From Sphaerisporangium corydalis (GTDB lineage Bacteria; Actinomycetota; Actinomycetes; Streptosporangiales; Streptosporangiaceae): 64,000 nucleotides of DNA. The translations under genes were made by a program, and so were the position numbers. Shown here piece after piece: positions 35,892-47,542 of the stretch (its first letter is position 1; each line of letters begins with the position of its first letter). The notes under the pieces are model-generated. The model worked only from the letters and a program-made list of their open reading frames with translations, searched no databases and was not told the origin of the DNA. The stretch covers positions 1 to 64,000 of the forward strand of contig NZ_JANZYP010000008.1 in NCBI RefSeq assembly GCF_025506355.1. Reading direction: 5' to 3'.

Positions 35892-35935
35892 GACCTGCCA
35901 TGACCTCCACGTCACGCCGTGGGGGGTGGCAGGTC
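35892..35935 (+). terminator. Hairpin terminator of the second sdh operon
   Basis: GACCTGCCA (35892-35900) pairs with TGGCAGGTC (35927-35935), followed within a few bases by a run of T's. It separates the sdh operon from the first GTTWD cassette. Confidence 0.7.
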
Positions 35936-35947
35936 GCTTTTCTGTGT

Positions 35948-36069
35948 GGCAGGAAGTGGTCACGGGCGGGCAGCTTGCTGCCGTCCATTCGTCTGGTTCC
36001 AGGCTTCTGTTTGCCGGAGAGTTGTTCTCACAAGGACGAACGCAAAACCTCCCGGAAAAGAGAAACAAA
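35948..36069 (+). promoter_or_regulatory. Conserved GTTWD-cassette leader, copy 1
   Basis: A 122-bp leader found in all five cassettes. It holds a hairpin (GGCAG-CTTG-CTGCC at 35969-35982, extended by GGGC/GTCC around a bulged base), a variable middle, then GAGTTGTTCTCACAAGGACGA and a purine-rich GGAAAAGAG ahead of the ATG. Copies 1-3 share the middle TTCCAGG..TTCTGTTTGCC, unlike copies 4-5. Confidence 0.75.
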
Positions 36070-36207
36070 ATGACGAACTCCACTTCCTCCCCCGCCGCCA
36101 AGAACACCGCCACCCGCGCCGCCGGCACCACCTGGGACTCCTTCTCCCGCACCGCCGGAACCACCTGGGACGCCTTCGGCAAGACCCCCGGCACCACCTG
36201 GGACTAA
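36070..36207 (+). CDS. GTTWD triple-repeat peptide, copy 1
   Basis: A 45-residue peptide of unrecognised family. The N-terminus is MTNSTSSPAAKNTATR, then three GTTWD units spaced 11 residues apart: AAGTTWDSFSR, TAGTTWDAFGK and TPGTTWD, the last ending the protein. No cysteine, signal peptide or membrane helix. The second unit uses GGA for Gly where the others use GGC, a synonymous change with the peptide kept. The purine-rich GGAAAAGAG before the ATG serves as ribosome site. The short N-terminus plus repeated identical units resembles a multi-core precursor peptide. No modifying enzyme is recognised next to it. The next gene downstream is DUF6058-like. Confidence 0.75.
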   Translation: MTNSTSSPAAKNTATRAAGTTWDSFSRTAGTTWDAFGKTPGTTWD

Positions 36208-36584
36208 TCACACCAGAACAATCGCCAGAATCGCTCATAGCAATCAGAAATCAAGTTCAATCAGATCCACCTGAACGAACAGCTCGATCGAACGAGAACA
36301 GCCCGGCCGCCCGACTAAGACCCTCTTGATCCGCATCCGGATCGACGGCATCGGCGAACATCGAATCACCGGGTACCAAACGCTCAGCACACCTCCCGCG
36401 AACACGGCTGTTCCGGCACGCTGCCCGAAAAGCCGTCCAATTCATCCGGCGCCGGTGGGATCCACTCCTGCCCGGATGCCGGTCGTCCTGGGATGGTTCG
36501 ACGCTCGGCGAAACGATCCACGGCTAGCGTGCGGGACGAGAGCGGCCGGAGCGCCGCCCCGCGCGAGCACCGGAGGAACGTCCC
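36208..36584 (+). other. Gap after cassette copy 1
   Basis: A 377-bp stretch without a supported gene. The first ~100 bp are A-rich, unlike the surrounding DNA. The conserved cassette 3' element follows at 36312-36376. The rest, 36377-36584, must contain the promoter of the DUF6058-like gene; nothing else was recognised. Confidence 0.5.
36312..36376. repeat. Cassette 3' element, copy 1
   Basis: Conserved block about 105-170 bp after the peptide stop. It contains GATCCGCATCCGGATC, itself an inverted repeat, followed by GACGGCATCGGCGAAC. It matches copy 4 best (the first 17 bases of the block differ at only a few positions) and shares GGCATCGGC with copies 2, 3 and 5. Confidence 0.65.
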
Positions 36585-37181
36585 ATGTCCGAGGCGGATC
36601 TGAAACGACACCTGTCCGAGCGGTTCCGCGAGGTCAACGGGGACCATCCGATGACGCGTGCCGACGACGACTACGTCAGCGAGCAGTTCGTCGTCCTGGA
36701 GAAGCTGTGCGCGACCCACGGACGTGACGCGGACGAGGTCCGGCGGCTGATGCTGGACAGGCGCCTGCCGCTGCCCGGCTACCTGCGCTCCGACGGCGCC
36801 GAAATGGTGCCTTCCGACCTGTTCGCCCTCGCCGAGGAGGCCGGCGGCCTGGACCGGCTCGGCGCGTGGTTCGCCGCCCACTGGGCCGACCCGGCCGAGG
36901 GGGAGGACGAGCTCAACGGCTACCTCAACGGCCGGTACGTGTGCCTGCACTCGGTGACCCCGGAGAACATCCAGCGCAAGGGCGCGCTCGTGGCCGCCAT
37001 CACCACCGAGCTGGACGAACCAGGGGAGGGGGAGTGGCTCGGGCGCCTGCACGCCCTGGTCGACGAGCTCGACGCGCTGGAGCCCCCGTTCACCGCCTAC
37101 GACCGTCTGCGCTTCGGCGGCCCGACGTCCCGCGACACCTGCGTGGACGGCGCGCGCGCCCGCCACCCTCTCCCGCGCTGA
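36585..37181 (+). CDS. DUF6058-like protein of unknown function
   Basis: A 198-residue soluble protein starting MSEADLKRHLSERF, mostly helical. The segments REVNGDHPMTRADDDYVSEQF, VVLEKLCATHGRD, RLPLPGYLRSDG and EMVPSDLF look like the family called DUF6058, which databases associate with natural-product gene sets. I recall this pattern rather than having searched it. No catalytic motif is visible. The ATG is preceded by GGAGG about 7 nt upstream. It lies between cassette copies 1 and 2, 77 bp before the second leader, which makes it the only local candidate partner for the peptides. Confidence 0.6.
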   Translation: MSEADLKRHLSERFREVNGDHPMTRADDDYVSEQFVVLEKLCATHGRDADEVRRLMLDRRLPLPGYLRSDGAEMVPSDLFALAEEAGGLDRLGAWFAAHWADPAEGEDELNGYLNGRYVCLHSVTPENIQRKGALVAAITTELDEPGEGEWLGRLHALVDELDALEPPFTAYDRLRFGGPTSRDTCVDGARARHPLPR

Positions 37182-37257
37182 CGGCTCCCGCGCTGTCGCC
37201 CTCCCGCGCTGACGGCGCGAGCGTTCCCGCACGTCGTAGGGCGTGGTTTTCGCGGGT

Positions 37258-37379
37258 GGCAGGAAGTGGTCACGGGCAGGCAGCTTGCTGCCGTCCATTC
37301 GTCTGGTTCCAGGCTTCTGTTTGCCGGAGAGTTGTTCTCACAAGGACGAACACAAAACCTCCCGGAAAAGAGAAACAAA
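37258..37379 (+). promoter_or_regulatory. Conserved GTTWD-cassette leader, copy 2
   Basis: 122 bp, nearly identical to copy 1. One difference is G to A at 37278, the position that is unpaired (bulged) in the proposed hairpin, so the stem is left intact. Starts 77 bp after the DUF6058-like stop. Confidence 0.75.
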
Positions 37380-37517
37380 ATGACGAACTCCACTTCCTCC
37401 CCCGCCGCCAAGAACACCGCCACCCGCGCCGCCGGCACCACCTGGGACACCTTCTCCCGGACCGCCGGAACCACCTGGGACACCTTCGGCAAGACCCCCG
37501 GCACCACCTGGGACTGA
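37380..37517 (+). CDS. GTTWD triple-repeat peptide, copy 2
   Basis: A 45-residue peptide, identical to copy 1 except at the two residues after the first and second WD, where both are Thr (WDTF) instead of Ser and Ala. It has the same three 11-residue-spaced GTTWD units, no cysteine, and ends exactly in GTTWD. Same leader and ribosome site. The residues between the units vary while GTTWD does not, in all five copies. Confidence 0.75.
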   Translation: MTNSTSSPAAKNTATRAAGTTWDTFSRTAGTTWDTFGKTPGTTWD

Positions 37518-37966
37518 GAAGACAAAGAACTCAAGCGGCCGACCACCAACCGAGAAACAGTCCCCCTCGAAAATCGAACAAGCGCAGAGAACCACCGCAC
37601 CACCAAAGTGAACACTTCCGGTCACGCCGACTCTGGCCATTCGACTCCGATGGCATCGGCGACAATCAGGGAACCGGGCATTCCAGCGGCCGATTGACCG
37701 CCGAGACCCTCCTCGCCGGAAACGACCGGCCGGACCCTTCTCCGGACCAGCACCCGATGACCCCCTCACGCGCCGTCCAACCCGGTGCCGCGCTGCCGCG
37801 CCGTCGCGCCCTTCGCCGCCCGGGGATCTTCGCGCCCGAGGGGTTCCGCCAGTACTGAGCGGGCCGCCCAACCCTCACGACCGACACCTCGGCGCTCCGC
37901 GCCGCCTCCCCATGCCGCGACCGCTCCTCCAGCCACGTAGAAGCGCAACCTTTCATGCAGTCGACC
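37518..37966 (+). other. Gap after cassette copy 2
   Basis: A 449-bp stretch. The first ~100 bp are A-rich spacer. The cassette 3' element is at about 37584-37691. The remainder, up to the Fic operator, shows no supported gene on either strand; it contains a half-site CCTTTCAT at 37949-37956 of the Fic operator motif. Confidence 0.5.
37618..37691. repeat. Cassette 3' element, copy 2
   Basis: Contains CCGGTCACGCCGA, the odd palindrome CCGATG-G-CATCGG and AACCGGGCATTCCAGCGGCC. It aligns closely with copy 5 (46414-46486), and the likeness extends upstream to a shared CACCGCACCACCA at 37584 and 46388. Confidence 0.7.
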
Positions 37967-37999
37967 TCGATGAAAGGATACGGCTTATCCTTTCATCGA
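37967..37999. promoter_or_regulatory. 14-bp palindromic operator upstream of fic
   Basis: Perfect inverted repeat: TCGATGAAAGGATA, 5-base loop, TATCCTTTCATCGA. Further half-sites of TGAAAGGAT occur at 37949-37956 (inverted) and 38011-38019. It lies just before the fic start and, since Fic carries a C-terminal winged HTH, is a plausible autoregulatory operator. Confidence 0.7.
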
Positions 38000-38026
38000 A
38001 AGGGCGTGCGTGAAAGGATGGCCGAC

Positions 38027-39325
38027 ATGGCTGGACACCTCGAGGAGTCATGGCCCGCAGCCTGGGACGCCCCAAGCAAGCGGGACCGGCGGGGTGGGCT
38101 CTATCGCCCCTACCTTCCTGACCTCCTTGCGGGTGGCGGCCCGCTTGAGGTGTCCTCGGGCATGGCTCAAGAAGCCTCCAAGGCTGAGAATCTGGTGCGC
38201 CGGCTGGTCGCGCATCCCGCAAGCCACGGCATCGACGGCCTCGCTCGGTTCCTCCTTCGGTCAGAGGCGATCGCCTCATCCAGGATCGAAGGGCTGCAGG
38301 CTTCCCCGCAGCAGGTGGCGCTGGCCGAACTCGCCGACGGCGACACGGGGGTCACACAAGGATTCACCACGACGGCAAAGCTGGTGGCCAACAATGTGAC
38401 AGCGCTTCGGCGGGCCGTCACCGAACTGGTCGCTGTCGAGGCCGTCTCGACGGCCGACATCGTGGCTTTGCATCAGGCTCTGCTGCCCGAGGACAGGAAC
38501 CACGGCCTACGGGAGGTGCAGAATTGGATCGGCGGCGGCAATTGGCACCCTTTGGACGCCGAGTTCGTCCCGCCTCCGCCCGAGCACGTCCCTGCGCTTA
38601 TTGCCGATCTCGCGTCCTATGTCAACGACGCTCCGCACGCGCCTCTCATCCAGGCCGCACTGGTCCATGCGCAGTTCGAGACCATCCATCCGTTCACCGA
38701 TGGCAACGGCAGAGTCGGCCGGGCGCTCATTCACACAGTCCTCACTCGGCGCGGGCTGACCCCGAACGCGATCCTTCCGATCAGCTTGGTTTTACTCACG
38801 CGCTCGGATGAATACGTCAACGGGCTCACGGCGTTTCGATACAACGGCGAAATGGCGTCGCAGGAAGCTCAGTCCGCTCGGAACGCTTGGCTACATGTTT
38901 TCCTCACGGCCACGACGACGGCTGTCGAGCAGGCGGAGAGGTTCGCCGACGAACTCACTGAGCTGCGCGCGGAGTGGCTGGAGCGGCACCGCCTCTTCCG
39001 GCAATCTCGCGGGCTGCGGCCCTCTCCCCGGTCCGGTTCGGCGGTCGCTCGTCTTCTTGAGTTGTTGCCGGCGGTGCCGGTCATGACCGCCCGTACCGTA
39101 CAGCAACTGTTGTCGGTCACTCACCCTGCTGCCCGTCAGGCGCTGGAAGAACTCGCCGGGGCCCGCATCGTGCATCCCAAGCAGGTTGAGCGGCAGACCA
39201 CGGGATACCTGGCTCGTGAAATCTTCGATCTTCTCACGCTGACCGAGCGCCGCTTGGCCAGTACGCGATGGGATACCCGCGAAACCCCACCCCGGCGTAC
39301 GGTCCCGGCTCGTCCACAGCGTTGA
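38027..39325 (+). CDS. Fic-family AMP-transferase with winged-helix tail
   Basis: A 432-residue Fic protein. The N-terminal domain carries the inhibitory helix SSRIEG near residues 84-89 (pattern S/T-x3-E-G/N), so it is a self-inhibited class II type. The Fic core has HPFTDGNGRVGR near residues 221-232, complete with catalytic His and phosphate-binding residues. The C-terminal ~110 residues hold a winged HTH (TARTVQQLLSVTHPAARQALEEL). It should transfer AMP (or another nucleotide) to a protein target; target unknown. Starts at 38018 or 38027 avoid the upstream operator; 38027 has GAAAGG 9 nt ahead. The longer ORF from 37955 would run through the operator. Confidence 0.9.
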   Translation: MAGHLEESWPAAWDAPSKRDRRGGLYRPYLPDLLAGGGPLEVSSGMAQEASKAENLVRRLVAHPASHGIDGLARFLLRSEAIASSRIEGLQASPQQVALAELADGDTGVTQGFTTTAKLVANNVTALRRAVTELVAVEAVSTADIVALHQALLPEDRNHGLREVQNWIGGGNWHPLDAEFVPPPPEHVPALIADLASYVNDAPHAPLIQAALVHAQFETIHPFTDGNGRVGRALIHTVLTRRGLTPNAILPISLVLLTRSDEYVNGLTAFRYNGEMASQEAQSARNAWLHVFLTATTTAVEQAERFADELTELRAEWLERHRLFRQSRGLRPSPRSGSAVARLLELLPAVPVMTARTVQQLLSVTHPAARQALEELAGARIVHPKQVERQTTGYLAREIFDLLTLTERRLASTRWDTRETPPRRTVPARPQR

Positions 39326-39473
39326 GTCCGGTAACGGCTGCGATCTGCCAAGCCAGGGCCGGTCAGGGCGCTGCGCAAGCGATGATCTTCGTGTGCGCGA
39401 CAGGCGGCGCAGGGTCCTGACCTGGCCTGGCGTGAGGTGCTGCCGCACGCGTTGCCAGGTAGCTTTTTCAAAT

Positions 39474-39595
39474 GGCAGGAAGTGGTCAGGGGCGGGCAGC
39501 TTGCTGCCGTCCATTCGTCTGGTTCCAGGGTTCTGTTTGCCGGAGAGTTGTTCTCACAAGGACGAACACAAAACCTCCCGGAAAAGAGAACGAAA
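39474..39595 (+). promoter_or_regulatory. Conserved GTTWD-cassette leader, copy 3
   Basis: 122 bp with the same hairpin and GAGTTGTTCTCACAAGG block. Middle of the copy 1/2 type (TTCCAGGGTTCTGTTTGCC). Starts 148 bp after fic. Confidence 0.75.
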
Positions 39596-39733
39596 ATGAC
39601 GAACTCCACTTTCTCCCCCGCCGCCAAGAACACCGCCACCCGCGCCGCCGGCACCACCTGGGACTCCTTCTCCCACACCGCCGGAACCACCTGGGACACC
39701 TTCGGAAAGACCCCCGGCACCACCTGGGACTGA
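39596..39733 (+). CDS. GTTWD triple-repeat peptide, copy 3
   Basis: A 45-residue peptide: MTNSTFSPAAKNTATR, then GTTWD units separated by SFSHTA and TFGKTP, ending in GTTWD. Differences from copy 1 are Ser to Phe at residue 6, Arg to His in the first linker and Ala to Thr in the second. The middle unit again uses GGA for Gly. The genes downstream (DUF397, XRE) are on the other strand, so this copy stands alone as a transcription unit. Confidence 0.75.
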   Translation: MTNSTFSPAAKNTATRAAGTTWDSFSHTAGTTWDTFGKTPGTTWD

Positions 39734-39849
39734 AAAACCGGAAAGCCCCTCGAACAGCCGCTGGAAAATGAACACGACCGTTCGCTGAACGGCTTCAGGA
39801 AATACTGCGACACCGCAGGCAAGAAAGCGCACGGACCGCCAGGCCAAGT

Positions 39850-39905
39850 CGACCAAGACCATCGCGATCGGTACCCGACGGATGGCATCGGCGAACACCA
39901 CAGTG
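39850..39905. repeat. Cassette 3' element, copy 3
   Basis: Contains CGGATGGCATCGGCGAACACC. Shares the GATGGCATCGGC core with copies 2 and 5 and GCGAACA with copy 1, but its left flank is unlike either pair. Confidence 0.55.
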
Positions 39906-39973
39906 TTAGGCCCAGGACTCCAGGTCCCCATCGAATTCCCGGTCACCCGCTGCAGGGGTGAATTCCCGACGAG

Positions 39974-40180
39974 TCAGGACAGATTGCTGAAGCTGCCTGC
40001 CTTGACGCCGATGACGAAGGACCGCCACTCGGAGGGACCGAAAATCAGGTTAGGTCCATCCGGAATCTTGCTGTCACGTACGGCGACCACGCCGGGAAGA
40101 TTGTCGGCTACTTCTACACACTGCCCGCCATTGCCTGAAGATCGTGACGACTTCCGCCATACGGCGACACTCAAGTCCAT
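39974..40180 (-). CDS. DUF397 protein
   Basis: A 68-residue protein with the DUF397 hallmarks: WRKSSRSSGNGGQCVEVA near the N-terminus, VAVRDSKIPDGP in the middle, and WRSFVIGVKAG at the end. In actinomycetes these small proteins are partners of XRE/DUF5753 regulators in the whiJ/abaA-type modules that affect development and antibiotic production. The start at 40180 lies inside the end of the XRE gene (10-nt overlap), so translational coupling remains although the XRE gene is shrunken. Confidence 0.9.
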   Translation of the reverse strand: MDLSVAVWRKSSRSSGNGGQCVEVADNLPGVVAVRDSKIPDGPNLIFGPSEWRSFVIGVKAGSFSNLS

Positions 40181-40386
40181 TGCTGTTTCGCTTCCTCGAT
40201 CATCTTGCGGGACCCGCGCTCAGGATATGCCCATAGTCGTATGAGGCGGCTCACCTGGGTCTGTGTGCATCCCAGGCGGGTGGCCACGGCGGCCTGGGAG
40301 AGCTGAGCGGCCTCGCGCAGGCGGCGCATCTCGGTGCCGAACGGCACGCGAGGGGACCCGGGGTCGGGGAATTGCTCCACGGTCAT
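40171..40386 (-). pseudogene. XRE/DUF5753 regulator reduced by internal deletion
   Basis: A 71-residue ORF. Residues 15-48 are a good XRE helix-turn-helix (FGTEMRRLREAAQLSQAAVATRL, TQTQVSRL). The usual family is ~270-290 residues with a DUF5753 domain after the HTH. Here the HTH is followed almost at once by ERGSRKMIEEAKQQWT, which resembles the extreme C-terminus of those proteins. The middle ~200 residues thus appear deleted in frame. A mini-repressor that still binds DNA is possible, but it lacks its sensing domain. The downstream DUF397 overlap is retained. Confidence 0.65.
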
Positions 40387-40604
40387 GGCGATCCTCTCGA
40401 ATAGAGAAAATCGGGCTTTTCATCTTGGGCGGCGATTCCGGTCCGAGGTTTGATTAAACCGGCCGCTGTCATCACCGGTCATCTTCTGGGCCGCCGATCA
40501 GGCTTGGAATCACCGGTCACGAAGGCAATACAAGCACACGCCATGTTTATCCGGCAGGACGGAAAGAAAAGCGATTCATCATCTGTGAGCGAGGGGCGGG
40601 ACGA

Positions 40605-41075
40605 GTGAAAAGGGATCGAGGGGGTAGCTTCCGGCGGCCAGGGCCGGTCGGGCTGCGGCAATGCGATGAGGCGCCCAGTTCGGACGCGTGGATCGGGGAC
40701 TTTCCCGGCGGGATCGCGTCCGTGCCCGCGACCCGGGCGTGGGCGCGCGGGCTGCTGGCCACGCGGGTCGCCGGTCCGGTGCAGGACGACGTCATGCTCC
40801 TGCTGAGCGAGGTGGTCACCAACGCGGTGGAGCACTCGTCCTCCGGGAGCAGGGCCGATGGGCGGGTGACCGTACGCGTGACCCTTTCTTCCCGGTTCGT
40901 CCACGTGGAGGTGACCGACGCGGGATCGGCCACGAGCGCGCCCGTGGCGCGGATGGTGGAGGCCGGCAGCGAGGGCGGACGGGGCCTGTGGCTGGTCGAC
41001 ATGATCGCGACCGCGTGGGGATCCCGTCACGACGGCAAGGCAGGCAGAACGGTCTGGTTCCAGGCGGCGCTGTAG
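40605..41075 (+). CDS. RsbW-like ATP-binding protein (HATPase_c)
   Basis: A 156-residue single-domain GHKL ATPase of the anti-sigma/RsbW class. Motifs: LLLSEVVTNAVEHS (N box), VEVTDAGSA (G1), GGRGLWLVDMIATAWG (G2). The N-terminal ~40 residues are variable. Such proteins lie divergent from XRE/DUF397 pairs in actinomycetes, as here with a 218-bp gap. It may bind a sigma factor or an anti-sigma antagonist as a kinase, but no partner is encoded next to it. GTG 40605 follows a GAGGGGCGGG ribosome site. Confidence 0.88.
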   Translation: MKRDRGGSFRRPGPVGLRQCDEAPSSDAWIGDFPGGIASVPATRAWARGLLATRVAGPVQDDVMLLLSEVVTNAVEHSSSGSRADGRVTVRVTLSSRFVHVEVTDAGSATSAPVARMVEAGSEGGRGLWLVDMIATAWGSRHDGKAGRTVWFQAAL

Positions 41076-41118
41076 GAGGGTTACGCCACGACAGGGCGCC
41101 CCACCGATACGCGCGCAT

Positions 41119-41250
41119 ATGGCCGCGTCACTGCCAATACCGCGACGCAGATGGTCGCGTCACTGCCAATACCGCGACGCAGATGGTCGCGTCACTGCCA
41201 ATACCGCGACGCAGATGGCCGCGTCACTACGACGCAGATGGCGGCGTCAC
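41119..41250 (+). repeat. 32-bp minisatellite
   Basis: Three full 32-bp units beginning ATGGCCGCGTCACTG or ATGGTCGCGTCACTG (41119, 41151, 41183), a shortened 23-bp unit (41215) and a partial one (41238). Units are contiguous without spacers. It fills most of the gap between the ATPase and the AI-2E gene. Confidence 0.9.
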
Positions 41251-41340
41251 GGGAGGTGAGCGCTCGGGCCCCGGGCGAGGGGGTCACTCATCGGCGCCGG
41301 CCCGAGTCCGTTTCCTCTGGACTGTGCCTAGGGTGTCCTT

Positions 41341-42489
41341 GTGCCTGACATGCTCAATGCCACGAAGACGCGCACCGCGCTGCGCACGTCGGCGCTCATC
41401 TCCCTGGAGATGCTCGTCGTCCTGCTGATGGCCGCGGTAGCCGTATGGGTCCTCGGCCAGATGTGGTCCGTTATTTGGCCGCTCGTGATCGCCCTGCTCC
41501 TCACCACCCTGACCTGGCCCGTGGCCCGCTTCCTGCGCCGGCACGGCTGGCATCCCGCCCTGGCCGCCTCGGTGGTGACCATCCTCTTCCTCCTGGTCGC
41601 CGCAGGCACCGTGGTGCTGATCGCCGTCCCGGTGGCGTCCCAGTCCGGCGAGCTGTCCGCCGGGGTGGGCAGAGGCATCCAGCAGTTGCGCGACTGGGCC
41701 GCCGGGCCACCGCTGAACATCAGCGCGGACCAGGTCAGCAGCGCACTCGACAGCGGGGTCAAGCGCGTCCAGGCCAGTGTCGGCAGCATCGTCACCGCCA
41801 CCCTCACCGGCGTGGGCACCGTGGTCAACGGCCTGGTCACCACCGTCCTGGCGCTCTTCCTGATGTTCTTCTTCCTCAAGGACGGCCCGCGGTTCCTGCC
41901 CTGGCTGACCCGTCAGCTACCCGGCCGACTCGCCACGGACGTGCCGACCGTGGCCGCGCGTAGCTGGGACACCCTCGGCTCGTTCGTACGCTCCCAGGCC
42001 TTCGTGGGCCTGCTCGACGCCGTCTTCATCGGTCTCGGCCTGTGGATCGTGGGCGTACCGCTGGTCCTGCCCCTGGCCGTCCTGACCTTCGTCTCGGCGT
42101 TCATCCCCATCGTCGGAGCCCTGTTCGCCGGGTTCGTCGCGGTCCTCATCGCGCTGGTGTCCAACGGGTGGACGGACGCGCTGGTCGTGCTCGCCATCAT
42201 CGTCGCCGTGCAGCAGCTAGAGGGGAACGTGTTCCAGCCCATGGTGCAGAGCCGAGGTCTCGGCCTGCACGCGGGGGTGATCCTTCTGGCGGTGACGCTG
42301 GGCGGCAGCCTGGCGGGCATCGTGGGCAGCCTGCTCGCCGTACCGGTCGCGGCCCTGATCGCCGTGGTGTGGAACTACCTGCGCGAACAGCTCAGCGACC
42401 CGCCCCAAGAACCGGACACCGGCGTACCGGTAACGGACCAACCAGACACCGGCAAACCAGAGACCGTCCCCGTGCCGAAACCCACCTGA
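41341..42489 (+). CDS. AI-2E family transporter
   Basis: A 382-residue integral membrane protein of the AI-2E exporter/PerM family with about eight helices. The first two lie at residues ~20-60, a soluble stretch at ~95-145 includes GVGRGIQQLRDWA, and the family core near the middle and end shows LFLMFFFLKDGPRFLPWL, AFIPIVGALFAGFVA and QQLEGNVFQPMVQSR. Substrates in this family range from autoinducer-2 to ions; none can be assigned. GTG 41341 has AGGG ~8 nt upstream. Its 3' end abuts a truncated SRPBCC remnant on the other strand. Confidence 0.88.
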   Translation: MPDMLNATKTRTALRTSALISLEMLVVLLMAAVAVWVLGQMWSVIWPLVIALLLTTLTWPVARFLRRHGWHPALAASVVTILFLLVAAGTVVLIAVPVASQSGELSAGVGRGIQQLRDWAAGPPLNISADQVSSALDSGVKRVQASVGSIVTATLTGVGTVVNGLVTTVLALFLMFFFLKDGPRFLPWLTRQLPGRLATDVPTVAARSWDTLGSFVRSQAFVGLLDAVFIGLGLWIVGVPLVLPLAVLTFVSAFIPIVGALFAGFVAVLIALVSNGWTDALVVLAIIVAVQQLEGNVFQPMVQSRGLGLHAGVILLAVTLGGSLAGIVGSLLAVPVAALIAVVWNYLREQLSDPPQEPDTGVPVTDQPDTGKPETVPVPKPT

Positions 42490-42537
42490 CGAGGTCACCG
42501 TCCGCCCGTTGTGCTCGATGTAGGTTCCGAGGTTCAT
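42490..42537 (-). pseudogene. Truncated SRPBCC/AHSA1 gene remnant
   Basis: Just after the ArsR stop, overlapping it as TGATG, a reading frame begins MNLGTYIEHNGRTV. This is the normal opening of the SRPBCC-domain protein usually encoded downstream of this type of ArsR gene. After ~14 codons the likeness stops and the frame runs into the antisense of the AI-2E gene. The rest of the gene has been lost, apparently when the AI-2E gene arrived next to it. Confidence 0.6.
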
Positions 42538-42851
42538 CAGGTCTCCTTGGTGTCGTCGAGGTACCGCCCGAGCGTGTCGAGCCGGGCGTTCCACAGCCGC
42601 CGGTAGGGGGCGAGCCATGCGTCGAGCTCGGCCAGCGGGGCGGGGTCGAGGGTGTAGACGCGGCGTTGCGCGTCCTGCTCGACGCGGACGACGCCCGCGT
42701 CGCGCAGCACCCGGAGGTGCTTGGACGTGGCCGGCTGGCTGAGGTCGAGCGCGTCGACCAGCTCACCGACGGCGCGGGGGCGCTCACGCAGGAGCTCGAG
42801 TATCGCGCGGCGGTTCGGATCGATCAGCACGGACCAGATCGCATCGGGCAC
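42537..42851 (-). CDS. ArsR-family winged-helix repressor
   Basis: A 104-residue repressor with a complete ArsR winged HTH: DPNRRAILELLRERP, VGELVDALDLSQPATSKHL, LRDAGVVRVEQDAQRRVYTL. There is no cysteine metal site; this subgroup is usually paired with an SRPBCC protein. The C-terminal WLAPYRRLWNARLDTLGRYLDD fits that subgroup. I chose GTG 42851, which starts just after a palindromic operator and may be leaderless; an ATG at 42884 would put the operator inside the gene. Its partner gene downstream is truncated. Confidence 0.85.
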   Translation of the reverse strand: MPDAIWSVLIDPNRRAILELLRERPRAVGELVDALDLSQPATSKHLRVLRDAGVVRVEQDAQRRVYTLDPAPLAELDAWLAPYRRLWNARLDTLGRYLDDTKET

Positions 42852-42859
42852 TCGGCCCA

Positions 42860-42879
42860 ATATGCCACAGGAGGCATAT
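42860..42879. promoter_or_regulatory. Palindromic ArsR operator
   Basis: ATATGCC-N6-GGCATAT, a perfect 7-bp inverted repeat 8 bp upstream of the GTG chosen for ArsR and overlapping a CATATT that could be its -10 element. Fits autoregulation. Confidence 0.65.
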
Positions 42880-43035
42880 GCCATGCAAGGAATACACGCC
42901 GGTTTTCGTGTTCCGGTGAGGCGCGCCTGCCGTCGCGGAAGGCGATCACCCGATGCGTACGGGCGGCCGTGCGGGGCTCTCACCTGCGGTTACGTCCTTC
43001 GTCGGCGGGACCGGCGGCACGTCCCCCGAGATGGT

Positions 43036-43158
43036 GGCAGGAAGTGGTCAGGGGCGGGCAGCTTGCTGCCGTCCATTCATCTGGTTCGGGGCGCGGAATT
43101 GCCGGAGAGTTGTTCTCACAAGGACGAACACAAAACCTCCGAAGAAAAGAGAACGACA
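43036..43158 (+). promoter_or_regulatory. Conserved GTTWD-cassette leader, copy 4
   Basis: 123 bp. Same hairpin and GAGTTGTTCTCACAAGG block, but the middle is the other type, TTCGGGGCGCGGAATTGCC, shared with copy 5. The purine tract before the ATG is changed (GAAGAAAAGAGAACGAC), so the frame that reads through copies 1-3 is broken here. This argues that the leader is not protein-coding. Confidence 0.75.
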
Positions 43159-43272
43159 ATGACGAACAACACTTTCTCCGCCACCCGCACTGCCGGCACC
43201 ACCTGGGACTCCCGCGCCGCCGGCACCACCTGGGACAGCTTCTCCAAGACCCCCGGCACCACCTGGGACTAA
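43159..43272 (+). CDS. GTTWD triple-repeat peptide, copy 4
   Basis: A 37-residue peptide, the shortest copy: MTNNTFSATRTA, then GTTWD units with linkers SRAA and SFSKTP, ending in GTTWD. The segment PAAKNTATR is reduced to ATR, and the first spacing is 9 instead of 11 residues. The three GTTWD units are unchanged. Convergent with the phosphoesterase gene on the other strand. Confidence 0.75.
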   Translation: MTNNTFSATRTAGTTWDSRAAGTTWDSFSKTPGTTWD

Positions 43273-43371
43273 GAAAGACCGAACAGATTAATCAGCAAGA
43301 ATCCCAACTGGAAACAACGACCGACGAATAGCAGCAGATCCCATCTAGTAAGACGAGAAAAGCCCGAAAGC

Positions 43372-43430
43372 CCCGGCTAAGACCACCTTGATCCGCATTC
43401 GGATCGGCGGCACCGGCGGACACCGAAGAA
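43372..43430. repeat. Cassette 3' element, copy 4
   Basis: GGCTAAGACCACCTTGATCC, then GCATTCGGATCGGCGGCACCGG. It pairs with copy 1 (GACTAAGACCCTCTTGATCC) even though its leader pairs with copy 5. Confidence 0.65.
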
Positions 43431-43529
43431 ATCGGGCGAACAAAGCGGACGGCCCGACCCCCGCGAGACTCCATCCCCTGGCCCACCGGCCGGCCTTCGG
43501 CATGGCCATTGCGTCCCGCGGGATCAGAG

Positions 43530-44867
43530 TCAGTGCACCAGGCCGATGCCGGTGAAGGAGCGGTCGTACTCGGTGAACGACTGGTTGGTGTACGGCCCGT
43601 AGATCCAGGTGCGCACCGAGCCCGCCTGGGTGTCGATCTCGACCAGGCGCACCGGGTTGGTGGTGTTGGAGTGGAACGTCTGCAGGAACGAGTAGATCTT
43701 GTTGCCGTGCACGCCGGTGTCCACCCTGTTCCCCGCGATGCCGACATGCCCGGAGAAGACGAACATGATGTTGGCGTACTGCTTGATGAGGTTGTCGTAC
43801 AGGTACTGCGGGCTGGTGGCGCCGTACCCGGCGCTCTGCTCGATCGCGCCGTTCGCGTCGATGTAGTCGTGCGTGGCCACGATGACGTTGTGGTGCGGGT
43901 AGGCGGCGACGACGCTCTTGGCCCAGTCGACCACCTCGGTCCTCGGCCACAGCTCAAGGGTCATCACCAGCCACTGTGCCCCGCCGGCGTCATAGGTCGA
44001 GAACGAGTTGTCGACCTTGCCCGGCTCGAACTGCCCCTTGACGGCGCCGTACTGCGCAGCGGTGAAGTACTGGTTGAAGACGGTCGTGTCCCGGACGAGC
44101 TCCCGCGTGTGAGCGGGGTCGCGGGCCGAGCCGCCGACACCGGTCGCCTGCGTGTCATGGTTGCCGATCGCCAGCGAGTACGGCACCTTCGCCGTCTCCA
44201 GCGACCGCATGGCGTTCCGCGCGACCATGTACTGCGAATGGTCGGGGGTGTCCCAGTTGACGACGTCACCGGTGTGCGTCACGAACCGCAGGTCGAGCGC
44301 GGCCCGGTTGCCGGCGAGCCAGTCGGTCCGGTTCTTGAAGCGGGTGTCGCCCGCGTTCAGCACTTCCTGCTGGGTGTCGGGCATGACGGCGAAGCTGAAC
44401 TTGGTGTCGGTGACGGGCGACTCCATCCGGGCGTAGGCCAGGTGGACGTTGCGGTCGCACGCCGCCGTGCTCAGGTCGTTGATGAACTGGATCTTGACGG
44501 AGTGCGTGCCCGCGCCGAGCGCCGGTCCCACCGGGTAGGTGCCGTAGCTGGTGGCGCTGACGATCGTGGTCTGGCCGGCGACCGTGCCGTCCACCGTCAC
44601 CTGGACGGTCGGCCACCCCTCGCAGTTGTCGCCGATCGCGCCGATCGCCACCCGGCCGGAGCCGTCGATCGTCGTGGTGGCGTAGCTGGTATCGCTCCAC
44701 AGTGAGGCCTGGGTGCCCGACGCGGGGACGGGTGTGCCGGTCGCCGTCCTGATGGCCCCGTTCACCACGGTGAACTGCGAGGCCGGGGCGGCGTTCGCGG
44801 TACCTCCCCAGAGGGCGGTGGCCGCCAACGCCGCGATGACCGCGGATCCGCTTCTTCTCATGCGCAT
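43530..44867 (-). CDS. Secreted metallophosphoesterase with carbohydrate-binding module
   Basis: A 445-residue exported protein. The signal peptide (SGSAVIAALAATALWGGTANA) is cut near residue 27. Residues ~30-135 look like a CBM36/CBM60-type xylan-binding fold: a paired cysteine region DNCEGWPTVQVTVDG, SYGTYPVG, and AGTHSVKIQFINDL. The calcineurin-like phosphoesterase domain follows at ~150-440, with MPDTQQ, THTGDVVNW, AIGNHD, ATHDYID and FSGHVG, supplying the usual His/Asp/Asn metal ligands. It probably acts on phosphate esters at plant or microbial polysaccharide surfaces. ATG 44867 follows GAGG by 9 nt; the longer ORF extends into intergenic DNA. Confidence 0.85.
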   Translation of the reverse strand: MRMRRSGSAVIAALAATALWGGTANAAPASQFTVVNGAIRTATGTPVPASGTQASLWSDTSYATTTIDGSGRVAIGAIGDNCEGWPTVQVTVDGTVAGQTTIVSATSYGTYPVGPALGAGTHSVKIQFINDLSTAACDRNVHLAYARMESPVTDTKFSFAVMPDTQQEVLNAGDTRFKNRTDWLAGNRAALDLRFVTHTGDVVNWDTPDHSQYMVARNAMRSLETAKVPYSLAIGNHDTQATGVGGSARDPAHTRELVRDTTVFNQYFTAAQYGAVKGQFEPGKVDNSFSTYDAGGAQWLVMTLELWPRTEVVDWAKSVVAAYPHHNVIVATHDYIDANGAIEQSAGYGATSPQYLYDNLIKQYANIMFVFSGHVGIAGNRVDTGVHGNKIYSFLQTFHSNTTNPVRLVEIDTQAGSVRTWIYGPYTNQSFTEYDRSFTGIGLVH

Positions 44868-45126
44868 CGCCGATTTCCTCCGTGCACGTCGTGTCCGCTG
44901 CTCCGACACCCGGATGGTAGGCAAGATCAGGTACGGCAATGCGAATACCGAGAACATTGTCCAGATACGCGGGCTGTACTTCGTGCTTCCCCCTGAGGGC
45001 GCGTCCGGTTGTGGATCGGGGGCGATCGGCGGTCGAGGTGGCGGTGTCCGGGCGTCGCGCGCGGACCGGCGGGGGTGCGCGCGGAATGATGGGTTCTCCA
45101 GTTCGTCCAGGTGACAGGAGCGTCGG

Positions 45127-45996
45127 ATGCGGATCGGTGTCGTGTTCCCCCAGACCGAGATCGGCGGGGACGTGGGCGCGGTGCGCGCGTACGGCCAAGG
45201 GGTCGAGGAGCTCGGTTTCCAGCACCTCATCGCCTATGACCATGTCCTCGGCGCCGACCCGGCGGTCCACGAGGGCTGGCGCGGCGTCTACGACGTGGAC
45301 ACGACGTTCCACGAGCCGATGGTGCTCTTCGGGTACCTGGCGGCGCTGACCACGCTGGAGCTGGTCGCCTCGATCATCATCCTGCCCCAGCGGCAGACGG
45401 CGCTGGTGGCCAAGCAGGCGGCCGAGGTCGACCTGCTCAGCTCCGGCCGGTTGCGGCTGGGCGTGGGGCTCGGCTGGAACCCGGTCGAGTACGAGGCGCT
45501 CGGCCAGGACTTCACCACCCGGGGCAGGCGCATGGAGGAACAGGTCGAGCTGATGCGCCGGCTGTGGACCGAGCGGTCGGTCACCTTCGAGGGCGAGTAC
45601 GACCGGGTGACCGGAGCCGGGCTGGCGCCCCTGCCGGTGCAGCGGCCGATCCCCATCTGGTTCGGGGCGCAGTCGCCGGCCGCCTACCGCCGTACCGGGC
45701 GCCTGGCCGACGGCTGGTTTCCGCAGATGCTCCCCGGGCCGAAGCTGGACGAGGCGAAGGCGATGGTCCACGAGGCCGCCGTCCAGGCGGGACGCGACCC
45801 GTCGATGCTCGGCATGGACGGCCGCGCCACCTGGACGGGAGACGCGGAGGAACTGAACCGGGTGGCAGGCCGGTGGCGGGAGTCCGGCGCCACGCACCTC
45901 TCCGTCAACACGATGGGCACCGGCCTGAGCTCGCCCGACGACCACCTGACCGCCCTGCGGGCCGCCGCGGCCGCCCTCGGACTACGCCCGTCCTAG
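45127..45996 (+). CDS. LLM-class F420-dependent oxidoreductase
   Basis: A 289-residue TIM-barrel oxidoreductase of the luciferase-like class. Landmarks: MRIGVVFPQTEIGGD at the N-terminus, LEHLIAYDHVLGA-like FQHLIAYDHVLGA, LPQRQTALVAKQAAEVDLLSSGRLRLGVGLGW, and IPIWFGAQSPAAYRRTGRLADGWFP. The GVGLGWNPVE loop is typical of enzymes using F420 in actinomycetes. Substrate not predictable. It ends 39 bp before cassette copy 5. Confidence 0.9.
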   Translation: MRIGVVFPQTEIGGDVGAVRAYGQGVEELGFQHLIAYDHVLGADPAVHEGWRGVYDVDTTFHEPMVLFGYLAALTTLELVASIIILPQRQTALVAKQAAEVDLLSSGRLRLGVGLGWNPVEYEALGQDFTTRGRRMEEQVELMRRLWTERSVTFEGEYDRVTGAGLAPLPVQRPIPIWFGAQSPAAYRRTGRLADGWFPQMLPGPKLDEAKAMVHEAAVQAGRDPSMLGMDGRATWTGDAEELNRVAGRWRESGATHLSVNTMGTGLSSPDDHLTALRAAAAALGLRPS

Positions 45997-46035
45997 ACCC
46001 CGGAGCAGGGCGTTCTCGCCGTCTCCTGTGCGGGT

Positions 46036-46157
46036 GGCAGGAAGTGGTCACGGGCGGGCAGCTTGCTGCCGTCCATTCGTCTGGTTCGGGGCGCTGAATT
46101 GCCGGAGAGTTGTTCTCACAAGGACGAACACAAAACCTCCCGGAAAAGAGCAACGAA
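46036..46157 (+). promoter_or_regulatory. Conserved GTTWD-cassette leader, copy 5
   Basis: 122 bp. Same hairpin; middle of the copy 4 type (TTCGGGGCGCTGAATTGCC). A TGA in this middle stops the frame that is open through copies 1-3, again arguing for a non-coding leader. Confidence 0.75.
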
Positions 46158-46286
46158 ATGACGAACTCCACTTTCTCCCCCGCCAGGAACACCGCCACCC
46201 GCGCCGCTGGCACCACCTGGGACTCCCGCGCCGCGGGCACCACCTGGGACGGCTTCGGAAAGACCCCCGGCACCACCTGGGACTAG
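46158..46286 (+). CDS. GTTWD triple-repeat peptide, copy 5
   Basis: A 42-residue peptide: MTNSTFSPARNTATRAA, then GTTWD units with linkers SRAA and GFGKTP, ending in GTTWD. It combines the short SRAA first linker of copy 4 with the GFGKTP-type second linker of copies 1-3. Downstream is the alpha/beta hydrolase gene, ~410 bp away. Confidence 0.75.
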   Translation: MTNSTFSPARNTATRAAGTTWDSRAAGTTWDGFGKTPGTTWD

Positions 46287-46696
46287 AAACTCCGAACCTC
46301 CCGGAATACGAAAAGCCACCTCGAAACCAATTGAAGACCTGAAACCGGAAAGCCAACAGAATCGCCGCCCGGACAGCCAGAAAGAATCACCGCACCACCA
46401 CGAAAGAGCAGCCCCGGTCACGCCGATCGAGACCATCCGCACCCCGATGGCATCGGCCAATCTGAGAAACCGGGCATTCCACGGCCACTTCGACGCCGAG
46501 ACGCGCGAAACCCCCCGTCTCCAGCCATGACCGGCCGACTCCCCTCACAGATCGCCGGCACGACGGCCCGCCGCGCGGCCGTACCCCCGCCGCACCGGGC
46601 GCCCGCCGCCGGGCGCACCCATCTGAAGATCGCTCCGGAAATCCGTGGACGGTGTCCCGGTCGCCCCCGAATACTGGTGCTCCCTGACCAGCGATC
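46287..46696 (+). other. Gap after cassette copy 5
   Basis: A 410-bp stretch: ~100 bp of A-rich spacer, the cassette 3' element (about 46388-46486), and ~210 bp before the hydrolase gene with no supported ORF. The hydrolase promoter must lie here. Confidence 0.5.
46414..46486. repeat. Cassette 3' element, copy 5
   Basis: CCGGTCACGCCGA, then CCGATG-G-CATCGG, then AACCGGGCATTCCACGGCC. Near-identical blocks in the same order as copy 2, although its leader belongs with copy 4. Confidence 0.7.
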
Positions 46697-47542
46697 ATGA
46701 GGACTCCTGTGCCCTTCTTCGCCTCCTCGGCCGGTACGCCCCTGCACTACGACCTACGGGGCAGGGGGCCGTTGCTCGTCTGCCAGCCAGGTGGTCCCGC
46801 CCGGCCCGCGTCGTACCTGGAGACGCTCGGCGGCCTCGACCGGCACCGCACCCTCGTGCTGCTGAACCCCCGGGGCGTCGGTCAGTCTGCCGCCGCCGGC
46901 CATTACCGGTTCACGGACCTGGCGGACGACCTCGAAGCCCTGCGGCGGCACCTGGACGTGGACACCCTCGACCTGCTGGGCCACTCCGCGGGAGCGCTGC
47001 CGGTCGCGGTGTACGCGGCCAGGCACCCCTCACGTGTACGGCGCCTGGTGCTGCTCACCCCCACCCGTCGCCTGGTCCCCGTGCGGGACGGTGAGACCGA
47101 TCGCGAGACCTACGCCAAGCAGCTCTTCGGCCAGGAGCCGTGGCTCGGCGACGCCCTCGCGGCGGTCAGGGAGATGGCGTCGGCGACGACGGAGGAGGAG
47201 GTGGACGCCCTGACCGACCGGATGATGCCGTTGTTCTACGGGCGGTGGGACGCCGCCGCGCGGGCGCACGCCTTCGACGTGGAGGGCACCGCGTACGCCC
47301 CCGTCGCCAGTGCGGGCTTCGACGATCCCGCCTTCGACCTGGCGACGTTCGGCGCGGTCACCGCCCCGGTGTCCCTTCTCGTCGGGGACCGTGACTGGAA
47401 CGTCGGCAGCCGGGCCCCCGAGGTCATGGCCGGCTGGTTCCCCAAGGCCGAGATCGCCTGGCTGCGCGGCTGCGGCCACTTCCCCTGGGTGGACGACCCC
47501 CGCCAGACCGCCACGGCCGTCCTCGACGTCGTCTCGCCCTGA
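46697..47542 (+). CDS. Alpha/beta hydrolase (proline iminopeptidase-like)
   Basis: A 281-residue alpha/beta hydrolase. The oxyanion strand LLVCQPGGP, NPRGVGQS, the nucleophile elbow LLGHSAGAL (Ser near residue 99), LLVGDRDW for the Asp, and GCGHFPWVD for the His are visible. The NPRG(V/T)G motif is typical of proline iminopeptidase-like enzymes, but other esterases share it, so substrate is open. Confidence 0.88.
   Translation: MRTPVPFFASSAGTPLHYDLRGRGPLLVCQPGGPARPASYLETLGGLDRHRTLVLLNPRGVGQSAAAGHYRFTDLADDLEALRRHLDVDTLDLLGHSAGALPVAVYAARHPSRVRRLVLLTPTRRLVPVRDGETDRETYAKQLFGQEPWLGDALAAVREMASATTEEEVDALTDRMMPLFYGRWDAAARAHAFDVEGTAYAPVASAGFDDPAFDLATFGAVTAPVSLLVGDRDWNVGSRAPEVMAGWFPKAEIAWLRGCGHFPWVDDPRQTATAVLDVVSP

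Follow-up and report, generated by a model that had tools for sequence, protein, structure and literature searches.

In the parts of the literature consulted, three kinds of peptide system come close to the element described here. In the RRNPPA systems of Bacillota, Phr of Rap-Phr is a small secreted propeptide in which a short signal can be present more than once (PMC11343458). Some graspetide precursors contain several core repeats with Thr and acidic residues (PMC8939145). The YcaO-dependent ribosomally synthesised and post-translationally modified peptides (RiPPs), thioamidated ones included, have clusters in Sphaerisporangium and Microbispora that contain a radical SAM protein (PMC8120280). 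By analogy, tandem pheromone propeptides of Bacillota and repeated-core RiPP precursors are the closest precedents, neither fitting fully, for five small cassettes dispersed in a 64,000-nucleotide stretch of Sphaerisporangium corydalis (contig NZ_JANZYP010000008.1, positions 1 to 64,000; hereafter the window), each with an open reading frame (ORF) that encodes three GTTWD units. These five tiny genes belong to a repeat-unit peptide family in Streptosporangium-related actinomycetes. With a probability of about 0.58, we place them, as short and amplified members, in a family of tandem-unit precursor peptides, the unit being functional and likely giving rise to a short secreted peptide.

Like the Phr propeptides, the family places several short units in one small peptide. 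It differs in reaching up to 10 units, in having a locus with a YcaO-fold protein and a phosphopantetheinyl transferase, and in that the window genome has its copies scattered and devoid of a hydrophobic segment; a receptor was not identified, and no search for a TPR-type one was made. The repeated cores recall graspetides, and GTTWD has both Thr and an acid. Unlike in graspetides, Thr plus Asp or Glu is not found in every core, since NTWP units of the family have no acid and GNGWG units neither acid nor Thr, and the eight locus proteins that were scanned include no ATP-grasp family (the genomes were not searched for it). The YcaO-fold protein resembles those of YcaO-dependent RiPPs in ending with a C-terminal PxPxP tail. 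However, its second ATP motif is degenerate, no TfuA or E1-like partner was noticed at the locus, and no radical SAM protein of the kind present in the clusters cited above was seen there.

The window ORFs, all on the plus strand and all terminating in GTTWD followed by a stop codon (Table 1), proved to be as the preliminary description had given them, with coordinates, spacing and codons confirmed. Copies 1-3 have a unit spacing of 11/11 and GGA as the Gly codon of the middle unit; for copies 4-5 the spacing is 9/11 and the codon GGC. The repeat exceeds the ORF: about 120 nucleotides of shared 5' sequence and a hairpin 100-136 nucleotides past the stop codon, both overlooked by the earlier reader, belong to each cassette. 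When the whole genome (G000, 9.48 Mb, in which the window is contig C141) was searched with a pattern of two units plus a stop codon, 15 matches were obtained with the forward pattern and none with the reversed one, which excludes a chance origin. The genome-wide search that had been proposed for ORFs ending in GTTWD thus adds ten cassettes outside the window, six on C107, two on C123 and one each on C74 and C96. BLAST with the 5' block alone returned 16 strong copies in the same genome, 15 of them with three intact units; the remaining copy lies on C13, at the master locus, and its units have decayed to GITWT/GTTGD.

Table 1. Positions of the cassette features in the window
Feature	Position	Strand	Basis
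Cassette 1 conserved 5' region, TGGCAGGAAG to start codon	35947..36069	+	putative promoter/untranslated region; BLAST of the 142-nt block in own genome, alignment
Cassette 1 peptide ORF, 45 residues, three GTTWD units	36070..36207	+	ORF reading
Cassette 1 3' hairpin	36310..36355	+	sequence inspection, covariation test
Cassette 2 conserved 5' region	37257..37379	+	BLAST in own genome, alignment
Cassette 2 peptide ORF, 45 residues, three GTTWD units	37380..37517	+	ORF reading
Cassette 2 3' hairpin	37626..37660	+	sequence inspection, covariation test
Cassette 3 conserved 5' region	39473..39595	+	BLAST in own genome, alignment
Cassette 3 peptide ORF, 45 residues, three GTTWD units	39596..39733	+	ORF reading
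Cassette 3 3' hairpin	39848..39892	+	sequence inspection, covariation test
Cassette 4 conserved 5' region	43035..43158	+	BLAST in own genome, alignment
Cassette 4 peptide ORF, 37 residues, three GTTWD units	43159..43272	+	ORF reading
Cassette 4 3' hairpin	43372..43417	+	repeat family D7, covariation test
Cassette 5 conserved 5' region	46035..46157	+	BLAST in own genome, alignment
Cassette 5 peptide ORF, 42 residues, three GTTWD units	46158..46286	+	ORF reading
Cassette 5 3' hairpin	46422..46457	+	sequence inspection, covariation test

Several lines of evidence favour a translated peptide in which the units are important: the linkers drift while the units do not, 15 of the 16 copies of the 5' block are intact, and the codon usage is biased, the bias in Thr, Ala and Ser codons of the cassette ORFs being far above that of the window ORFs. 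The comparison of substitution rates that had been proposed gave, for 24 distinct three-unit tails, proportions of synonymous (pS) and non-synonymous (pN) differences of 0.30 and 0.28 in the linkers, as compared to 0.11 and 0 in the units, a unit pN of 0 that is imposed by the search pattern. Copies in which the DNA is kept and the frame is broken, which the preliminary description had named as evidence for the DNA itself being the element, are few: 46 of the 52 ORFs located via the 5' region retain the GTTWD end, though their loci were mostly fetched because GTTWD was present. The selection on the units that had been supposed is supported by their retention with the frame while linkers drift, and by multi-unit precursors in relatives, with hydrophobic N-termini and a YcaO-fold locus.

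Across the family the units occur 2-10 times per ORF in most members, separated by spacers, and some operon-linked members retain a single one. In short forms with at least two units no stretch is hydrophobic (best 17-residue mean ≤0.49), whereas the longer forms that were measured reach best means of 1.66-2.35 ahead of the repeats, with some single-unit forms intermediate; putative signal-peptidase sites, such as AHA-ED in Planomonospora, were recognised by eye. In Streptosporangium, up to 10 GTTWD units are followed by a short tail. Within the genus of the window, Sphaerisporangium, the S. album genome (G001) has no GTTWD match and carries the same 5' block with a GNTWP-repeat peptide, and a GNTWP peptide is present in Planobispora siamensis. 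The type of unit was scanned at 22 of the 31 named occurrences of a conserved locus described below. LuxR-like and carboxyltransferase genes are both present at nine of these 22, and in eight of the nine the repeat peptide lies between them, with GTTWP units in Streptosporangium sp. KLBMP 9127, NTWP in S. album, Planomonospora and four Nonomuraea, and GNGWG in Planotetraspora. At the ninth (L182) no repeat peptide lies between those genes, and the GTTWD peptide of that genome precedes a phosphopantetheinyl transferase gene beyond the fetched stretch. Units are near-identical inside one precursor and differ as a set between lineages, with Trp in every unit type and Gly in most. This concerted change is the behaviour of multi-copy functional units, and it is what would be expected if each copy were a working signal or product.

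The exact pattern matched two of 394 genomes of the class, G000 and G160, both inside the family. Seven genomes with a single match each (G014, G067, G103, G105, G127, G138 and G185) were dismissed as chance, unrelated reading frames being evident for five of them (L231, L234, L235, L236 and L246), and the reversed-pattern control gave one match in 250 genomes. On viral contigs, none of 31 pattern-matching stretches was confirmed in a single scan with one long form as the query. Since the pattern is blind to NTWP-type units and to gaps between units above 42 nucleotides, it sets no boundary to the family. No curated cut-off was reached by the 8 members run against Pfam or the 10 run against NCBIfam, and the open-licence full-text literature, searched for GTTWD and GNTWP, held no description of the family, in keeping with what the preliminary description had said of the motif; the letters GTTWD occur in two papers, whose titles concern insect receptors and Weissella.

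Around operon-linked or single-copy peptides, a set of genes is conserved between genera, some having all of it and others a part. It comprises the YcaO-fold protein, MarR regulators, a LuxR/TrmB-like regulator, an epimerase, a carboxyltransferase (named by eye), a 90-residue protein, a 4'-phosphopantetheinyl transferase (PF01648) and an alpha/beta hydrolase. The locus was confirmed in 31 of 93 matched stretches, and the genera named are Sphaerisporangium, Streptosporangium, Microbispora, Planobispora, Planotetraspora, Planomonospora, Sphaerimonospora and Nonomuraea. At many loci the peptide ORF lies directly 5' of the gene for the 90-residue protein, which is found in 11/11 genomes of the genus, 15/130 of the family and 8/68 genera. 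The model of this protein has a ferredoxin-like fold that matches only generic alpha/beta plaits; PDB profile searches with its alignment and with that of the YcaO-fold protein gave nothing significant, and tblastn for remnants of its gene 3' of window-type solo cassettes was unconvincing (best E 0.16).

A look for co-occurring enzyme genes, as had been proposed, yielded the YcaO-fold protein, but one with a degenerate second ATP motif. The conserved ExxERD ATP/Mg motif is not kept in it: in 18 YcaO proteins of the genus E141 and D146 are present in all and E144 in at least 90%, while the 25 relatives of the YcaO-fold protein mostly have D/E-x-x-A-H-D, with Ala154 and His155 invariant. Because canonical ATP-motif residues are missing, a modifying role of this protein is doubtful. 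The DUF6058 gene of the window, previously taken as a hint of a natural-product link, is a genuine PF19531 member, yet only one among several unrelated neighbours.

At the conserved locus, the long form of about 70-140 residues begins with a hydrophobic N-terminal segment resembling an export signal, after which 2-10 copies of a short Trp-centred unit follow with variable linkers. The unit is the functional part, as shown by its being kept inside a precursor and changed in concert between lineages. Most likely it is excised, or else displayed, to act as a short peptide outside the cell, which would be a plain signal or, if modified, a product of RiPP type. The likely partners, placed by synteny, are the divergent YcaO-fold protein and the LuxR/TrmB-like regulator. 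In Sphaerisporangium, where GTTWD is the usual unit, one branch has, on this reading, shed the hydrophobic segment. It retained the 5' region and, for the most part, three units, and multiplied to the 15 separate cassettes of the window genome.

A number of observations weigh against this proposal. Translation, processing and secretion of the cassettes are predictions from sequence, the window-type short forms have no hydrophobic segment, and no protease, transporter or receptor turned up. A repeat peptide is present at 13 of the 22 scanned loci; it is absent from two Nonomuraea loci (L201 and L203) and decayed at two of Streptosporangium (L180 and L181). An exact C-terminal unit is not universal, since in Streptosporangium the last unit precedes a tail, and Gly is not kept in the units of Nonomuraea candida. 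In the second ATP motif of the YcaO-fold protein one Glu and the Arg are gone, G043 has two pattern matches and no YcaO-fold match, and the co-occurrence of peptide and locus is confounded by relatedness.

The 5' block, which begins at or near TGGCAGGAAG, is gapless across the first 95 alignment columns (51 copies). Within it lie an imperfect inverted pair, CAGGAAGC ... GCTTGCTG, one block resembling TCTGGTTC and another that reads CCGnAGAGTTG...AGnACnAA. A structured RNA was considered and rejected: RNAalifold on 33 dereplicated copies of the 51 gave a weak consensus (-5.7) with zero pairs changed on both sides, and nothing in Rfam exceeded the gathering score in window positions 35900-46800. 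As folding gives no both-sided change, we interpret the region as a putative promoter plus operators, for which CAGGAAGC/GCTTGCTG would be the inverted half-sites. A 31-bp core pattern of the block is present in 11/11 genomes of the genus, with 18 occurrences in that of the window, and in places precedes genes other than the peptide ORF. The same block lies upstream of a gene of about 220-232 residues, AhpD-like by eye, at L285 (G000:C13:14721), L310 (G006:C1:7226620) and L304 (G010:C18:110672), so that it may mark a wider regulon. A SnoaL-like gene lies on the opposite strand there, and the L310 gene carries the stretch SSLNQCRFCFRTHA. At L294 (G010:C3:251846) a copy stands ahead of a transporter-like gene (MFS by eye).

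The hairpin, of the form GCCGA ... CCNTC ... GANGG ... TCGGC, lies about 95-210 nucleotides past the stop codon in solo copies of G000, G005 and G009. It was chosen by eye and is present in these copies, which make up 22 of the 48 solo copies compared; inspection did not find it in those of the remaining genomes. In the 19 sequences used for the covariation test (two identical and one near-identical copy were omitted), 86% of the cells pair and 12 cells show a change on both sides. The observed pairing or covariation score was reached by 0/500 shuffles, with slid controls far lower; the count of pairs with a both-sided change was matched by 34/500, and the number of pair types was below the shuffled mean. 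The hairpin may be a terminator.

Solo cassettes sit between unrelated genes, commonly in same-strand clusters. The window, G005 and G009 each have clusters near a gene that by eye is SdhB-like, which suggests that some cassette positions are old. Copies 1 and 2 are near-identical and have different flanks; therefore copying of cassettes or gene conversion also occurs. Decay is seen in some copies, as GTTGD units or truncated ends.

Among other explanations, a multi-core RiPP, YcaO-dependent or not, would have GTTWD as its core, with its Thr or Asp residues converted (to heterocycles or esters) by an enzyme that serves every cassette in trans. Repeated cores, variable spacers, a Gly preceding Thr and the PxPxP-tailed YcaO-fold protein at the conserved locus are consistent with it; nevertheless we regard it as unlikely, considering the residues lost from the second ATP motif and the absence of ATP-grasp, radical SAM and lanthionine families from the eight locus proteins scanned with Pfam. 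Homologous precursors with NTWP, lacking acid, or GNGWG, lacking acid and Thr, argue against Thr- or Asp-dependent chemistry, and cross-links of the kind first suggested, if they need Thr and Asp, are not supported. Less likely still is a repeat peptide, secreted or on the cell surface, that stays uncut and serves in structure or binding, its units being sticky or attaching to a ligand. The long forms do join a hydrophobic N-terminus to several repeats, and the strong codon bias suggests high expression, but the short forms have no such segment and mostly three units, and many dispersed short copies would be unusual for a structural protein.

An intracellular decoy or regulatory peptide, the units of which would bind the YcaO-fold protein, the 90-residue protein or a regulator and tune the locus while solo copies titrate in trans, ranks lower again. 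The position of the peptide ORF immediately 5' of the 90-residue gene, the 5' region common to solo copies and locus, the solubility of the short forms and a seemingly non-catalytic YcaO-fold partner suit this predicted binding; the apparent export segment of the long forms does not. It is very improbable that the DNA or RNA itself is the element, in the form of a promoter-ORF-hairpin repeat (a mobile element or small RNA) whose ORF is incidental. The gapless 5' block, the both-sided changes of the hairpin in three genomes, the homology of copies 1-3, whose limits coincide with the 5' block and the stop codon or fall close to them, and the same-strand clusters amid unrelated genes would agree with it. 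On the other hand, frame and units stay while linkers drift, units vary as amino-acid motifs across genera, codon bias is strong, the 5' block shows no both-sided pair change, and the SdhB-side clusters of three species suggest long retention.

Some further features were observed. Ahead of the decayed master-locus peptide, a carrier-protein domain (PF00550; L141:17016-17288, G000:C13) has GGRGMTA at its attachment site, the usual Ser apparently missing. A 67-residue hydrophobic antisense ORF, probably a by-product of codon bias, was called opposite 6/8 cassettes on C107 and C123 (L009 and L010); the ORF caller was crude, and part of the long ORFs it called are wrong frames. Three strong matches to PF02624 and one weak one elsewhere in the window genome (C84:40195, C97:189646, C119:34106 and C97:191885) are perhaps other RiPP clusters. 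In the window, an imperfect inverted repeat with 35-nucleotide arms and a 5-nucleotide gap (37946-38020) lies just 5' of a Fic-family gene (38018-39322), and overlapping direct repeats in three copies with a 32-nucleotide period occupy 41114-41228.

Under the favoured reading of a tandem-unit precursor family, we tentatively consider, at somewhat less than even odds, a new class of peptide signal or natural product in Streptosporangiaceae: pherotype-like units (GTTWD, GTTWP, GNTWP and GNGWG) would evolve in concert, with a non-canonical YcaO-fold partner that reads or matures them, and would have been multiplied in one genus into more than 12 separately promoted cassettes without a hydrophobic N-terminus. 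The analysis names a peptide family that the tested Pfam and NCBIfam models miss and connects this family with a conserved locus that encodes a divergent YcaO-fold protein. The natural series of unit variants offers a way to test whether the unit acts as a signal, is a modified product or serves as a repeat for binding, and a degenerate YcaO retained beside such precursors in several genera would inform how YcaO proteins acquire other roles.

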